NCBI GenBank assembly: GCA_026393695.1 | Contig: JAPKZR010000076.1 | Span: 1 to 32,452, forward strand | Source of the DNA: Actinomycetota bacterium | Lineage (GTDB): Bacteria > Actinomycetota > Acidimicrobiia > Acidimicrobiales > Ilumatobacteraceae | DNA: 32,452 nt | Direction of reading: 5' to 3' | The notes under the pieces: generated by a model | Database searches by the model: none | The model's input: the letters and a program-made list of their open reading frames with translations, nothing else | Told to the model about the DNA's origin: nothing | In this document: piece after piece, positions 2,305 to 19,890 of the stretch | Layout of the letters: each line of letters begins with the position of its first letter | Numbering within the stretch: position 1 is the first letter of the stretch | Program-made: the position numbers and the translations under genes

Positions 2305-2379
2305 GCGGGTGTAGTTCAGCGGTTAGAACCTCAGCCTTCCAAGCTGATGACGCCGGTTCGATTCCGGTCACCCGCTCCA
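2305..2379 (+). tRNA. tRNA-Gly (anticodon TCC), CCA encoded
   Basis: GCGGGTG acceptor pairs with CACCCGC; TCAGC-CTTCCAA-GCTGA anticodon arm; GGTTCGATTCC T-arm; CCA at 2377-2379. Confidence 0.95.
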
Positions 2380-2458: not shown

Positions 2459-2535
2459 TGGTCGGAATGAGAGGATTCGAACCTCCGACCCCCTGCTCCC
2501 AAAGCAGGTGCGCTACCAAGCTGCGCCACATTCCG
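2459..2535 (-). tRNA. tRNA-Pro (anticodon TGG), CCA encoded
   Basis: Reverse complement CGGAATGTGGCGCAGCTTGGTAGCGCACCTGCTTTGGGAGCAGGGGGTCGGAGGTTCGAATCCTCTCATTCCGACCA; cloverleaf arms intact. Confidence 0.95.
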
Positions 2536-14141: not shown

Positions 14142-16355
14142 ATGGCAGTTGACAAACGCGCGGCCCGGCTTGGGGCGCTAGCCCTCGTGGCGGTGGTGTT
14201 GCTCAGTGCTATCGGAGCTCGGCTCTGGTTCTTGCAAACGGTTCAGCGCGACGCCTTTCAACAGCAGGTCTCAGTGAGCAAGACCCGCACCCAGTTGCTC
14301 GTGCCCGAGCGAGGTCGCATCTTCGATTCGGTGGGCCGAATCATTGCCGACAACCGTCGCGTGCTCACCGTCACGGTCGACCGTTCGATCATTCGTAAGA
14401 GCGCCAATCGCAACGAACTGTTTCTGCGCTTGTCTGGCTTACTCGGCGTGTCGGTGCAAGAGATGGAGCTGCGCTACAAGAGCGGCCGCTACAGCAACTT
14501 CTTGCCGCTGCCGCTTCGCGAAGACGTGCCCGAAGATCTGGTGCTGCAAATCGAGAGTCGTAGCGAGGATTACCCCGGGGTGCGTGGCGACGAAGACTGG
14601 AGTCGGGTGTATCCGTTCGCTCCGTTGGCGAGCCACGTGATTGGCTATCTCGGTCTCATCCTCGACACACAGGCGAAAGAGTACAAACAGCTCGGATATC
14701 TCAACAACGAGTCCATTGGGCAGTTCGGTGTTGAAAAGAGCATGGAGACCACGTTGCATGGCTCGTGGGGCAAGGTGATCTACGAGGTCGACAGCACCAA
14801 CCATGTGGTGCGCGAACTCAGCCGAGTCGAGCCTGTCGCCGGTAAAGACATTCAGCTCACGATCGATCTGAGAGTGCAGCAGTACGCCGAGCAAGCGCTC
14901 CAGACCGAGCTTCGTTTGCGTCGCGAAACCACCGACACGGCTCGCATGGCGCGCAACCCACTCGACAAGTTGGGCAATCCCAAGTTCACCGGCGAAGCGT
15001 TTGTTGTCGACCCTGACACGGGCGTCGAATACCTTCCGTACCCCTCGCCGGCCGGTTCTGTGGTGGTGATGGACCACGAGTCAGGCCAAGTGATTGCAAT
15101 GGCGAGTTATCCCACCTTCGACAATCGTTGGTTCAACGCTGGCATTAGCGGCGCGAAGTTCAAAGAACTGTTTCCCAATGATCAGGCCCACCCTGAGAAA
15201 TCGATTCTCGTGAATCGGGCAATTCAGGGCCAATACAACTTGGGTTCCACCTTCAAGCCGTTTGTGGCCTATGCGGGCATGATGTCGGGCGTTATCGCCC
15301 CCGACGAGTTGTACACCGACAAGGGCAGCTACAAGCTTGAGAGCATCGACCGCAGCGTCTGCAACACCGGAGTGCGCTGCGAGTATTTCAATGCCACCAA
15401 CGCCAATACTGGTCGTCCCAGTTCGTATGGGCCAGTCAGCGTCGAGTCTGCGCTGGCCATCTCGAGCGACGCGTTCTTCTACCGACTCGGTGAGCTCACC
15501 TTCAAGGCTGGTCGCAACCTGCTGCAGGACCAAGTGAAGAAGTTCGGCTTCGGTAGAGACTCGGGCATTGAGTTGCCCTTTGAGTTCGATGGTCGTGTCC
15601 CCGACTCAGAGTTGAAGAAGCGCTTGGTCGAGTCAGGCAAACTCGCCAAAGGCGAGGTGCCTCGCCTGCTCGTGGGTGACAACGTGCAGACCTCTATTGG
15701 CCAGGGCCTCTTGGCCGCCTCGCCGCTACAACTCGCCAACGCGTACGCCACCTTGGCCAATGGCGGATTCTTGAATACGCCACACATTGTTCGCGCGATC
15801 TATCAAGGTGGTGTCGCCGAGGTGTCGCCCGGCCTGGTCGATCTCACCCAGGGCGTGTTGATCACTGCCTACGACAAGGCCGACCTTGTCGAACAGATCG
15901 ATCTGCCACCTGCCGTGAATGATCCCATCGTGGCCGGCCTGAAACGCGTGATCACGGGCAAAGGCGTGCGTTATCCATCCACCTTCTACCATGCCACCAC
16001 TGGCGAGACGCTCTTCAAGAACTATCCGTACAGCAAGCTCACCATCGTCGGTAAAACCGGTACGGCGCAAGGGTTTGCGAGCAAGCCGTGGAACGACTCG
16101 TCTGCCTTTGCTGCCTTCAGCACCAATCCGTTCAAGCCGTACACCGTGGTGGCCTACCTCGAAAAGGCTGGCTTCGGCAGCAAGGCCGCGGCCCCCGTGG
16201 TGAAGTGTGTGTTCGAGGCATTGGCCGGCGCCATCAAGCTGGACCCAGTGGTGCCTTCTGATCCGCTCGATGTCACCTCGGCGCTACCCGCCCTGCCGGC
16301 TGAGTTGCGATCGACGAACTGCTTGCAGAATCCCATCGACCCGGTGCGCGACTAA
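14142..16355 (+). CDS. mrdA: Penicillin-binding protein 2 (peptidoglycan D,D-transpeptidase)
   Basis: ERGRIFDSVGRIIADNR, transpeptidase NLGSTFKPF (SxxK), SSD, KTGTAQ; precedes rodA. Confidence 0.94.
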   Translation: MAVDKRAARLGALALVAVVLLSAIGARLWFLQTVQRDAFQQQVSVSKTRTQLLVPERGRIFDSVGRIIADNRRVLTVTVDRSIIRKSANRNELFLRLSGLLGVSVQEMELRYKSGRYSNFLPLPLREDVPEDLVLQIESRSEDYPGVRGDEDWSRVYPFAPLASHVIGYLGLILDTQAKEYKQLGYLNNESIGQFGVEKSMETTLHGSWGKVIYEVDSTNHVVRELSRVEPVAGKDIQLTIDLRVQQYAEQALQTELRLRRETTDTARMARNPLDKLGNPKFTGEAFVVDPDTGVEYLPYPSPAGSVVVMDHESGQVIAMASYPTFDNRWFNAGISGAKFKELFPNDQAHPEKSILVNRAIQGQYNLGSTFKPFVAYAGMMSGVIAPDELYTDKGSYKLESIDRSVCNTGVRCEYFNATNANTGRPSSYGPVSVESALAISSDAFFYRLGELTFKAGRNLLQDQVKKFGFGRDSGIELPFEFDGRVPDSELKKRLVESGKLAKGEVPRLLVGDNVQTSIGQGLLAASPLQLANAYATLANGGFLNTPHIVRAIYQGGVAEVSPGLVDLTQGVLITAYDKADLVEQIDLPPAVNDPIVAGLKRVITGKGVRYPSTFYHATTGETLFKNYPYSKLTIVGKTGTAQGFASKPWNDSSAFAAFSTNPFKPYTVVAYLEKAGFGSKAAAPVVKCVFEALAGAIKLDPVVPSDPLDVTSALPALPAELRSTNCLQNPIDPVRD

Positions 16356-17518
16356 TGGCGTTTTCGGTACTGAATCGCCGGCCTGACTCGGGCCTCGGCA
16401 ATGTGCGCTCGAGTCCTGGCGATCCGAGCCGCAACGTCGATTGGGTGCTGCTGGTTGCCCAAGCGGCGCTCACTGTCATCGGATGCCTCACCGTGTATTC
16501 GGCGTCGCGTACGAAGGTGTCGAATCCGTATCTCTTCGCGACGCGACAGGTGGTGTTCGTCATCATCTCGATCGGCGTGATGCTGCTCATCATGTCGCTC
16601 GACTACTCATGGCTCCGCGAGCGGGCCCGCGCCTTTTACGTGGCCAGCCTTGTCAGCTTGGGTTTGATCTTCGTGTTGGCCAAGGTAAGTAACGGCGCTC
16701 AGCTCAGCTTCAGCGTGGGGCCGATCAACATTCAGCCGAGCGAACTGGCCAAGGTGGCGGTGTTGCTGGCGCTCGCAGCGTTTCTCAGTGAAGACAACAG
16801 TGATTCGGTGTCATACGAACGGTTCGTGGGCGGGCTCTGGCTCGGCGGCATTCCGGTGGTGCTCATCATTTTGCAGCCAGACCTGGGGTCGGCGTCGGTA
16901 TTCGTGGTGTTGATGATGGGACTCCTGCTGGTTGCTGGAGCCCGTGCCAAGTACATCGCAATGATCACGGTGCTCGCGATCAGCACCCTTGCTGCTGCGT
17001 TCGTTACTCGGTTCGTGAGCGGCTACCAGACGATTCGAATCCGGGCGTGGATGAGCCCGAACTCGTCAGACGACCTGTTGCAGCCCTACATCTTTCAGGG
17101 CCGCAACGCATTGCGGGCCACGGCTACTGGCGGAATCACCGGCAAGGGTTGGCTGCTCGGACCCATCACCAACGCCAGAAGCGACATCCCGGTGCAGTGG
17201 GCCGACTTTCCGTTTAGTGCCATCGCCGAACAATTCGGTTTGATTGGTTGCTCGGTGCTCATTGGGTTGTTTGCAGTCGCTCTGTTTCGCATTTGGAGAA
17301 TTGCGCACCTTTCCCGCGACATCTTGGGTACCTACATTTGCGCGGGTGTGTTCTCGATGCTGCTCTGGCAGATCTTCCAGAACATTGCGATGACCCTCGG
17401 ACTGATGCCGATTACGGGCCTGCCGATGCCCTTTATCTCGTATGGAGGATCGGGCATGGTGGCCTATTTCGTGATGTTCGGGCTCGTGCAGAGCGTGCAC
17501 ATGCGCCGAATGCGGTAG
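16355..17518 (+). CDS. rodA: SEDS family glycosyltransferase RodA
   Basis: Polytopic SEDS protein; FSVGPINIQPSELAKVAVLLALA, GLPMPFISYGGSGMVAYF; TAATG overlap with mrdA. Confidence 0.94.
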   Translation: MAFSVLNRRPDSGLGNVRSSPGDPSRNVDWVLLVAQAALTVIGCLTVYSASRTKVSNPYLFATRQVVFVIISIGVMLLIMSLDYSWLRERARAFYVASLVSLGLIFVLAKVSNGAQLSFSVGPINIQPSELAKVAVLLALAAFLSEDNSDSVSYERFVGGLWLGGIPVVLIILQPDLGSASVFVVLMMGLLLVAGARAKYIAMITVLAISTLAAAFVTRFVSGYQTIRIRAWMSPNSSDDLLQPYIFQGRNALRATATGGITGKGWLLGPITNARSDIPVQWADFPFSAIAEQFGLIGCSVLIGLFAVALFRIWRIAHLSRDILGTYICAGVFSMLLWQIFQNIAMTLGLMPITGLPMPFISYGGSGMVAYFVMFGLVQSVHMRRMR

Positions 17519-17560
17519 CGCAACTGCTGCGTGTACCGCACGTTTGGCCAGCGTTCACGT

Positions 17561-17800
17561 GTACGACTTGTTCGAAATGTCGATACCGTTCTGCAGCAAT
17601 ATCGTCTTGCCGCGACCAAGGTCGCTCCAAGACGTAGTGTTGGCCGCAACACACGTTGTCTGCTCTGCGTTCTGCGCAGCGGACAACAACAAGCAATCAG
17701 GGTGAATATTGCCCGTCAATGAGGTCGAAAGCGACGGCGCCGGTTGGGACGATTCCCACCTTGGGCAGCCGTTGCGCAACGCTCACCGGGATGGTGAGCG
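17561..17800 (+). ncRNA. Candidate structured 5' leader of rne (tandem hairpins); not a recognised family
   Basis: Seven mostly perfect hairpins back to back (see finding), ending just before the GGAGGG SD of the rne start at 17821. Confidence 0.45.
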
Positions 17801-17820
17801 CACACGGAGGGAATACGTCC

Positions 17821-19890
17821 ATGGACGACATACGGGTCGAGAATCTCGACGAACCGGCACAGAAATCAGCTGAAACGGCCGCAGAAGCGCCCGATTCAAG
17901 CGCAGAAGATGTTTCAGAAGGCGGAGTTGTCGACGAAACGGGCCAAGAGCCCACGGTGCGACCGGTTCGCAAACGTCGTCGCGGCTCGCGTGGCGGCCGT
18001 GGTCGCTCTAAGTCAGGCACCGGTCAAGGCGCTTCGGGCGACGGTGACGCCGATTCCGATGATGATGACGACGACTTCGGCGATGAGAACGATGTCGAGA
18101 ACGATGTCGATGGCGAAGCTGGTGACTCCGGCTCCGACGCCGACACGTCAGAGACGCCCGCTCCGGGCGCGCCCAAGGTGCAACGTCAGCAGAACCCACC
18201 GCGGCAAAAGCAAGCCGGTCAACAGCCCAGCGGCCAGCCTCGCGCACCGCAGCAGCCGCGCCAGCCTCGCCCTGCTGTCGTCGTCGTAGCCGCTGGCTCC
18301 GACGCAGACCCAGAATTGCCAGAGCGCGCATCCGAGGGTAAGGCCAGCGCCGAGGCCGCCGAGACTGCTCTCGTTCGGCGCCCGCAGATTGGCGATACCC
18401 GCCCCGCCCCGCGCCCGGCATCCGCCGCTCCTGAGGCTGCTGTCGAAGGCGCCGCACCAAGCACCGGCGCCAAGAAGAAGCGTCGGCGCACACCGAAGGC
18501 CAAGGTCGCCTCGGCAACCGGCAGCGGCTCATCGGGTGGCTCTCGCGGGAGTAGTGCCCAACTCGATGCCGATCTGCTTGAGAAGCGGCGTGGTCGCGAG
18601 CGCAACGGCCGTCCGGTCGGTCGCTATTTGATGTGCGTGCAAGTACGCGACAACCTCACCCAGGTTGCAGTGCTCGAAGGTCGCAACCTCGTTGAGCACT
18701 ACGTGAGCCAACCGGCCGACGATGTCAGCCAGATTCACGGCAACATCTACGTCGGCAAGGTGCAAAACGTGCTGCCAGGCATGGAAGCAGCCTTTGTCGA
18801 TATCAGCACGCCAAAGAACGCGGTGTTGTACCGCGGCGATGTGCAGTACGACCAAGAAGACATTGTTGAGGCCGGCAAAGACGCCCGCATCGAGAACATC
18901 CTCAAGGCCAAGCAGCTCATTGTGTGCCAGGTCACCAAGAACCCCATTGGGGCCAAGGGTGCTCGGCTCACTCAGGAAGTTTCGTTGCCGGGTCGCTTCG
19001 TGGTGCTCATTCCTAACTCAAAGACCTATGGCATCTCGAAGCGCTTGCCCGACGATGTGCGCAAGCGTCTGCGCAACATCCTCGACCGGGTGAAGCCCGC
19101 CGAGCATGGTCTCATCGTGCGCACCGCCGCCGAGAACGCATCCGAGCACGAGCTTCGCGCCGACATGACCCGTCTGCTCGATCAGTGGAACATCATCGAA
19201 GCCAAGGCCAAAAAGGCCCAAGGCCCAGCGTTGCTCTACCGTGAACCCGAGCTTGCAGTACGCGTGATCCGCGAGGAGTTCAACGCCGAATACCGCGGTG
19301 TCATTATCGACGACCAGCGCTTATTCGAAGACGTACGTGATTACGTCACGGCGTTCAACCCCGAGCTCGCCGACCGTGTCGAGTACTTCGACGCATCGCA
19401 AGAGGGCCTACCCATCTACGAGCGGTTCCACCTTCACGAGCAGCTTCACAAGGCGCTCGACCGCAAGGTGTGGCTGCGTTCTGGTGGCTCGTTGATCATC
19501 GAGCACACCGAGGCGCTCACGGTCATCGACGTGAACACGGGCAAAAACGTGGGCACATCGAACTCGAATCTTGAAGCAACGGTGTTCCACAACAATCTCG
19601 AAGCTGCCGACGAAATTGCTCGTCAACTTCGGTTGCGCGACATCGGCGGCATCATCGTGATCGACTTCATCGACATGGAGATTCGCGAGAACCGCCGTAA
19701 AGTGCTCGAAGCCTTCCGCGATGCCCTAGCCCGCGATAAGACACGTACGCAGGTGTTCGATATCTCTGACCTCGGTCTTGTCGAAATGACCCGCAAACGA
19801 ATCGGTGAAGGTCTGCTCACCAATTTCGCAGACCAGTGCCCGAACTGCGAAGGTCGTGGCGTGCTCGTTGATTTGGCGCTTTTGCAGTAA
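17821..19890 (+). CDS. rne: Ribonuclease E/G with long disordered N-terminal region
   Basis: Catalytic core IHGNIYVGKVQNVLPGMEAAFVDIST...TVIDVNTGKNVG...IVIDFIDMEIRENRRKVLEAF; CPNCEGRG; GGAGGG SD before ATG 17821; ORF extends in frame to 17656. Confidence 0.95.
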   Translation: MDDIRVENLDEPAQKSAETAAEAPDSSAEDVSEGGVVDETGQEPTVRPVRKRRRGSRGGRGRSKSGTGQGASGDGDADSDDDDDDFGDENDVENDVDGEAGDSGSDADTSETPAPGAPKVQRQQNPPRQKQAGQQPSGQPRAPQQPRQPRPAVVVVAAGSDADPELPERASEGKASAEAAETALVRRPQIGDTRPAPRPASAAPEAAVEGAAPSTGAKKKRRRTPKAKVASATGSGSSGGSRGSSAQLDADLLEKRRGRERNGRPVGRYLMCVQVRDNLTQVAVLEGRNLVEHYVSQPADDVSQIHGNIYVGKVQNVLPGMEAAFVDISTPKNAVLYRGDVQYDQEDIVEAGKDARIENILKAKQLIVCQVTKNPIGAKGARLTQEVSLPGRFVVLIPNSKTYGISKRLPDDVRKRLRNILDRVKPAEHGLIVRTAAENASEHELRADMTRLLDQWNIIEAKAKKAQGPALLYREPELAVRVIREEFNAEYRGVIIDDQRLFEDVRDYVTAFNPELADRVEYFDASQEGLPIYERFHLHEQLHKALDRKVWLRSGGSLIIEHTEALTVIDVNTGKNVGTSNSNLEATVFHNNLEAADEIARQLRLRDIGGIIVIDFIDMEIRENRRKVLEAFRDALARDKTRTQVFDISDLGLVEMTRKRIGEGLLTNFADQCPNCEGRGVLVDLALLQ

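Follow-up and report, generated by a model that had tools for sequence, protein, structure and literature searches.

A conserved hairpin beside the rne ribosome-binding site in Acidimicrobiales, a candidate leader RNA for the control of RNase E

The window analysed here, a stretch of 32,452 nucleotides from a genome of the order Acidimicrobiales (G000), carries the gene order mreB-mreC-mreD-mrdA-rodA-rne-rplU-rpmA, in which rplU and rpmA were identified by reading the sequence. RNase E initiates much of mRNA decay and thereby governs mRNA lifetimes. The rne product of the window matches TIGR00757 (E 7e-141) and RNase E in the PDB (E 4e-74); it also matches RnaseEMycob (E 2e-140), yet falls under the curated cut-off of that family. 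Two tRNA genes lie on opposite strands elsewhere in the window (2305–2376, plus strand; 2462–2535, minus strand). The rodA-rne spacer (17519–17820) had been described preliminarily as a dense array of seven hairpins, H0 to H6, and as a candidate structured leader of rne. The features of the spacer and of the genes that flank it are the following.

16355–17518, plus strand: rodA (mrdB), the gene 5' of the spacer (NCBIfam RodA/FtsW matches; list of open reading frames)
17572–17590, plus strand: conserved block TCGAAATGTCGATACCGTT, putative rne promoter region with a possible -10 element TACCGT at 17584–17589 (identity with locus L031)
17603–17634, plus strand: H1, lineage-specific hairpin (pair probability 0.84 in the outer and 1.0 in the inner stem; L001–L003 only)
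17637–17652, plus strand: H2, lineage-specific hairpin (pair probability 0.97; variation in L002 and L003 confined to the loop)
17655–17687, plus strand: H3, lineage-specific hairpin, eroding (pair probability 0.997 in the window)
17694–17820, plus strand: conserved rne leader element, comprising Palpha, Pbeta, H6 and the Shine-Dalgarno sequence (matches of model R1; covariation)
17700–17714, plus strand: helix Palpha, 17700–17705 with 17709–17714 (two-sided changes in 3 of 6 pairs in the genus)
17731–17775, plus strand: helix Pbeta, enclosing an apical stem at 17746–17757 that corresponds to the former H5 (pair probabilities of ~0.98–1.00 in the outer part)
17780–17800, plus strand: H6, the hairpin abutting the Shine-Dalgarno sequence, CGCTCACC-GGGAT-GGTGAGCG (covariation in the genus; constant position in the family and order)
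17806–17812, plus strand: rne Shine-Dalgarno sequence GGAGGGA (sequence)
17821–19890, plus strand: rne, encoding an RNase E/G family protein whose N-terminal extension is long and of low complexity (profile and PDB matches)

The folding comparison proposed in the preliminary description came out in favour of structure. Region 17555–17825 has a predicted energy of -113 kcal/mol, compared with an average of -95.1 for its shuffles (z -3.63); none of 200 dinucleotide shuffles folded as well, and its two halves have z values of -5.69 (17596–17693) and -2.62 (17694–17823) when each is compared with shuffles. The minus strand of the spacer also folds well. The sequences and coordinates originally listed for H0–H3, H5 and H6 agree with our reading of the DNA, but the array required revision. 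H4 (17724–17735) has a pair probability of 0.012, and its 3' arm belongs to the 5' arm of Pbeta, in which 17731–17741 pairs with 17764–17775. The pairing of H5 holds, but it forms the apical part of Pbeta and not a separate hairpin, and Palpha had been overlooked altogether. A mini-hairpin between the GGA of the Shine-Dalgarno sequence and a UCC before the AUG (window 17806–17820) is also possible in the genus, with a predicted probability near 1; no covariation was found for it there.

The 5' part of the spacer is confined to a narrow lineage. H0–H3 (17561–17687) were found solely in three sister species (L001–L003) and exhibit no compensatory changes, the outer stem of H3 being broken without compensation in both L002 and L003. 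The segment with H1–H3 (17596–17693) is highly stable (z -5.7), yet it is limited to these three species and its stems are eroding. A fourth member of the genus, L031, lacks H1–H3 and has both TCGAAATGTCGATACCGTT and the element from Palpha onward. This locus contains an additional 137-codon open reading frame (L031:646–1059) between rodA and the rne leader, and the block at 17572–17590 is identical despite that insertion, indicating that the promoter-like block and the 3' element both travel with rne. On the same grounds H0, which overlaps the block, is probably promoter DNA and not leader RNA, although its pairing sequence is as described, and positions 17572–17590 are probably the rne promoter region. 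No match to a sigma-70 consensus promoter was found in the spacer region, this block included, and no intrinsic terminator was found there.

These results rule out a single seven-hairpin array, since H4 does not form, H0 overlaps the promoter-like block and H0–H3 have a restricted range; what is conserved is Palpha, Pbeta and H6. The covariation expected among the spacers of relatives is accordingly seen in the 3' part (17694–17820), whereas changes in H0–H3 are uncompensated. The confinement of H0–H3 to three species without covariation, together with the good folding of the minus strand, would fit a view of the hairpins as products of chance or as lineage-specific repeat DNA. The spacer occurs just once in the genome, for which reason a repeat or REP element was rejected, and its 3' part is conserved and covaries, so that we consider this explanation highly improbable.

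The conserved element occupies 17694–17820, with H6 ending ~20 nt upstream of the rne AUG and immediately 5' of the Shine-Dalgarno sequence. Alignment of eight genus leaders (A2), which form seven distinct rows, gave 95.9% paired cells and two-sided changes in 9 of 28 pairs. Double-changed cells numbered 16 compared with 5.7 in shuffles, and slid controls of the same alignment were 31–53% paired with no more than four pairs showing two-sided changes. The changes are concentrated in Palpha, the tip of Pbeta and H6: the apical stem of Pbeta has two-sided changes in 3 of its 4 pairs, and H6, in which 98% of cells are paired, in 3 of 8. The outer part of Pbeta is mostly invariant, and its near-invariant base speaks neither for nor against structure. 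A larger alignment of 38 sequences (A3) gave 90.2% paired cells and two-sided changes in 23 of the 28 pairs, but it was fitted to the structure and therefore leans towards it. Compensatory changes thus exceed those of the shuffled and slid controls, on the basis of the seven distinct A2 rows and the structure-fitted A3. Two of the genus leaders, taken singly, are no more stable than their shuffles (L031, z -0.4; L033, z -0.3), and the case for the element rests on comparison and not on energy alone.

Searches with the genus model (R1) across genomes of the family, scored by whole-genome E values, had their best matches outside the genus at the start of rne in three other genera, g20, g23 and g11 (E 9e-9 to 3.5e-4), and several matches at rne were confirmed by direct reading of the loci. 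In a plain family-wide MAFFT alignment (A1) the register slips by 1–2 nt and much of the stem is masked; we therefore applied a register-free test to 55 non-redundant family leaders, after dropping loci with an uncertain start codon (L075, L092, L098–L100 and L104). In 21 of the 55 leaders the best hairpin between -58 and -10 outperformed its shuffled versions (p ≤ 0.05). The 36 that have no long reading frame upstream gave a combined p of 3e-10 on their own; combined p values overstate independence here, owing to kinship among the leaders. By comparison, the same test was positive in 2 of 45 leaders of neighbouring genes taken from the rne loci as controls (combined p 0.85). The 3' end of the H6-type stem clusters ~16–24 nt 5' of the AUG in the family leaders. 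Folding in 40-nt windows was deepest at ~-90 to -40 and at -60 to 0 relative to the AUG, while the windows on the Shine-Dalgarno sequence and the start had a mean z of +0.2 to +0.3 over the 55 leaders and were thus unstructured.

The hairpin extends through the order. Most of the ~35 order leaders that we read have it at this position, with a consensus near CGCACGCC..GGCGTGCGTCATGAGAAGGGA; two-sided changes are few within the tight order set. A model built from these leaders (R2) matched 111 of 119 order genomes at E ≤ 0.5, a threshold near which weak matches include chance ones. Among its best 30 loci, which include genomes absent from training, rne was present in 26, and the remaining four stop short of its catalytic domain. 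Beyond the order, R2 located rne in a single genome from the same class (G227, E 5e-7) and also matched a locus without rne (G361, E 3e-9), which may be a different gene with a similar hairpin and Shine-Dalgarno sequence. The feature therefore has the constant position and the specificity for one gene family of a structured leader. At two loci from another actinobacterial family (L159 and L165, from G218 and G270), the rne Shine-Dalgarno sequence is apparently buried in a strong hairpin.

In many relatives a DUF2344 gene (PF10105) precedes rne and the element overlaps its 3' end, the TGA of the gene falling within CATGAGAAGGGA directly after the hairpin. The nine genus genomes gave no PF10105 match, nor did G064, G134, G018 (g11), G167 (g22), G030 (g23), G028, three g19 genomes, G022, G080 or G021; the pattern is consistent, although some of the assemblies are incomplete drafts. 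The gene adjoins rne in the sister species G103, G092 and G114 (g11), G097 and G071 (g22), and G072 and G086 (g23), as well as in the order genomes G038 and G041, and the hairpin is found in the groups with and without it alike. A string of codons similar to the DUF2344 C-terminus is still present in genus leaders (VESDGA in the window, IERDGA in L033) and now lies within the 5' part of Pbeta. L046, L084 and L012 hold apparent remnants of the DUF2344 C-terminus that are open to the usual stop before rne, and PF10105 was not found there.

The similarity among leaders could accordingly be a coding leftover of DUF2344, consisting of its C-terminal codons and stop, or reflect translational coupling of DUF2344 to rne, with the hairpin itself having no role. 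The stop within CATGAGAAGGGA just 3' of the hairpin in many relatives, and the codons like the DUF2344 motif IERDG in the genus leaders, are what such an origin would leave behind. However, the hairpin persists with compensatory changes where the gene is missing, in the nine genus genomes and in several lineages, and a Shine-Dalgarno sequence left uncovered by the hairpin provides no lock for coupling. We regard this origin as very improbable. Retention of the hairpin after loss of DUF2344 is the strongest argument, drawn from sequence comparison, for selection acting on the RNA and not on the old protein.

Comparison with Rfam revealed no counterpart. No family matched the window at its gathering score, and a search of 17400–17950 up to E 5 gave no match to rne5 (RF00040), which we take to be the 5' UTR element of E. 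coli and enterobacterial rne, to rne-II, or to Actino-pnp, whose gene is presumably that of PNPase. A match to PrrB_RsmZ at 13.4 bits, under the family's gathering score of 44, was taken as chance. The opinion that the leader differs from both the E. coli and the Pseudomonas element therefore stands, given the Rfam result at gathering, the covariation and the recurrence at rne. Like rne5, the element lies directly upstream of rne and is a structured leader with hairpins before the start, but it differs from rne5 in sequence and architecture, its key hairpin abuts the Shine-Dalgarno sequence directly, and it may overlap the upstream gene. The rne-II motif (RF01756; PMC2864571), from the distant Pseudomonadales, is likewise a conserved structured RNA associated with rne, and Actino-pnp (RF01688; PMC2864571) is likewise an actinobacterial cis-regulatory leader of a ribonuclease gene, but one of pnp and not rne.

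Structure, covariation, a constant position, recurrence at rne and persistence without the DUF2344 gene are all computed properties of the element. The element is real and conserved and has no Rfam entry, and it probably has a regulatory role; the leader could plausibly control RNase E. The precedents come from other bacteria. In E. coli the rne 5' UTR, a leader of 361 nt, mediates feedback control of the gene, and in Synechocystis RNase E cleaves the 5' UTR of rne, which has been implicated in autoregulation (PMC10989929; see also PMC3997798). The Synechocystis leader relies on a U-rich cleavage site and premature termination, whereas the Acidimicrobiales region has no terminator-like site. 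In M. smegmatis, the half-life of an rne transcript whose promoter and 5' UTR were replaced exceeds that of the native transcript (PMC10641625).

By analogy with E. coli rne5, for which feedback is established, we propose that the 3' half of the spacer is a cis-acting rne leader that serves as a feedback sensor of RNase E in Acidimicrobiales, a reading to which we give about an even chance. Its core would be H6, directly 5' of the Shine-Dalgarno sequence, with Palpha and Pbeta ahead of it in the genus. The enzyme would attach to the helices of the leader and cleave either the neighbouring unpaired ribosome-binding segment or mRNA farther downstream, such that rne mRNA would decay when RNase E is in excess. 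The sequence of H6 varies, which argues against base-specific recognition, and the overlap of the element with coding sequence in many relatives counts against a leader with a feedback function. A C after GGA, sought as a conserved signature of RNase E cleavage 3' of the Shine-Dalgarno sequence, gave only 30 of 75 and is unconvincing. The groove residues named for E. coli RNase E, H268, Y269 and Q270 (PMC9841416), correspond in an alignment by eye to R, F and H in the enzyme encoded in the window, so conservation of the known stem-binding surface is not supported.

Stabilisation of mRNA by a 5' stem-loop is an established bacterial theme, and it lends support to a serious rival in which H6 is a protective or boundary stem-loop and not a sensor. 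It would block 5'-end-dependent decay or mark the 5' end of a processed rne-rplU-rpmA transcript, leaving the Shine-Dalgarno sequence free and involving no feedback. A hairpin that abuts the Shine-Dalgarno sequence, a stem that keeps its pairing while its sequence is free to vary, and the presence of rplU and rpmA downstream of rne all agree with this. A generic stabiliser would, however, be expected more commonly, whereas the feature occurs at rne and not before the tested control genes, and Palpha and Pbeta would be superfluous; we judge protection unlikely, though well worth weighing. The downstream genes also invite the suggestion that the leader responds to a different RNA-binding factor; other ribonucleases, or ribosomal proteins with genes downstream such as L21, would be examples. 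No specific support for such a factor was found and the element abuts rne, not rplU, making this improbable.

In other Actinomycetota we found a different hairpin at the equivalent rne position, in Mycobacteroides, Mycolicibacter, Rhodococcus, Amycolatopsis and Actinokineospora, and also in Nonomuraea and relatives, Actinocatenispora, Virgisporangium and Blastococcus. Its layout comprises an outer stem, a 3-nt internal loop on the 5' side, a GGC/GCC helix, a bulge and an inner stem, followed by the Shine-Dalgarno sequence. Four pairs of the outer stem have two-sided changes, a modest signal compared with shuffles. Examples of this motif (model R3), among others, are the following.

L250, 1815–1872: actinomycete rne hairpin
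L253, 1944–2003: actinomycete rne hairpin
L254, 1617–1692: actinomycete rne hairpin
L247, 1681–1752: actinomycete rne hairpin
L204, 1349–1407: actinomycete rne hairpin

In a sample of 248 genomes of the phylum, R3 matched six, once each and all in family f81; the match lies upstream of the known rne position in G248 and G260. Automatic start calls were often poor in other Actinomycetota. R3 matched neither the window, which does not have its layout, nor the tested Acidimicrobiia loci, and Rfam gave no match at gathering in five sources holding actinomycete rne loci. Among the open-licence papers searched, we found neither a description of either motif nor a described mechanism that sets the level of RNase E in Actinomycetota.

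Taken more broadly, these observations suggest, tentatively and somewhat short of an even chance, that Actinomycetota use leader hairpins abutting the Shine-Dalgarno sequence as a general means of RNase E control, with at least two unrelated and unlisted motifs both reporting RNase E activity to rne. One would be the H6 type of Acidimicrobiales, which has outlived the loss of DUF2344 in several lineages, and the other the internal-loop hairpin of actinomycetes, mycobacteria included. Lineages in which DUF2344 was lost and the hairpin kept provide a natural experiment; they suggest that an RNA element lying within a coding 3' end can persist alone. The conserved leader provides a defined sequence to mutate in studies of RNase E level, and the actinomycete motif is open to test in M. 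smegmatis.
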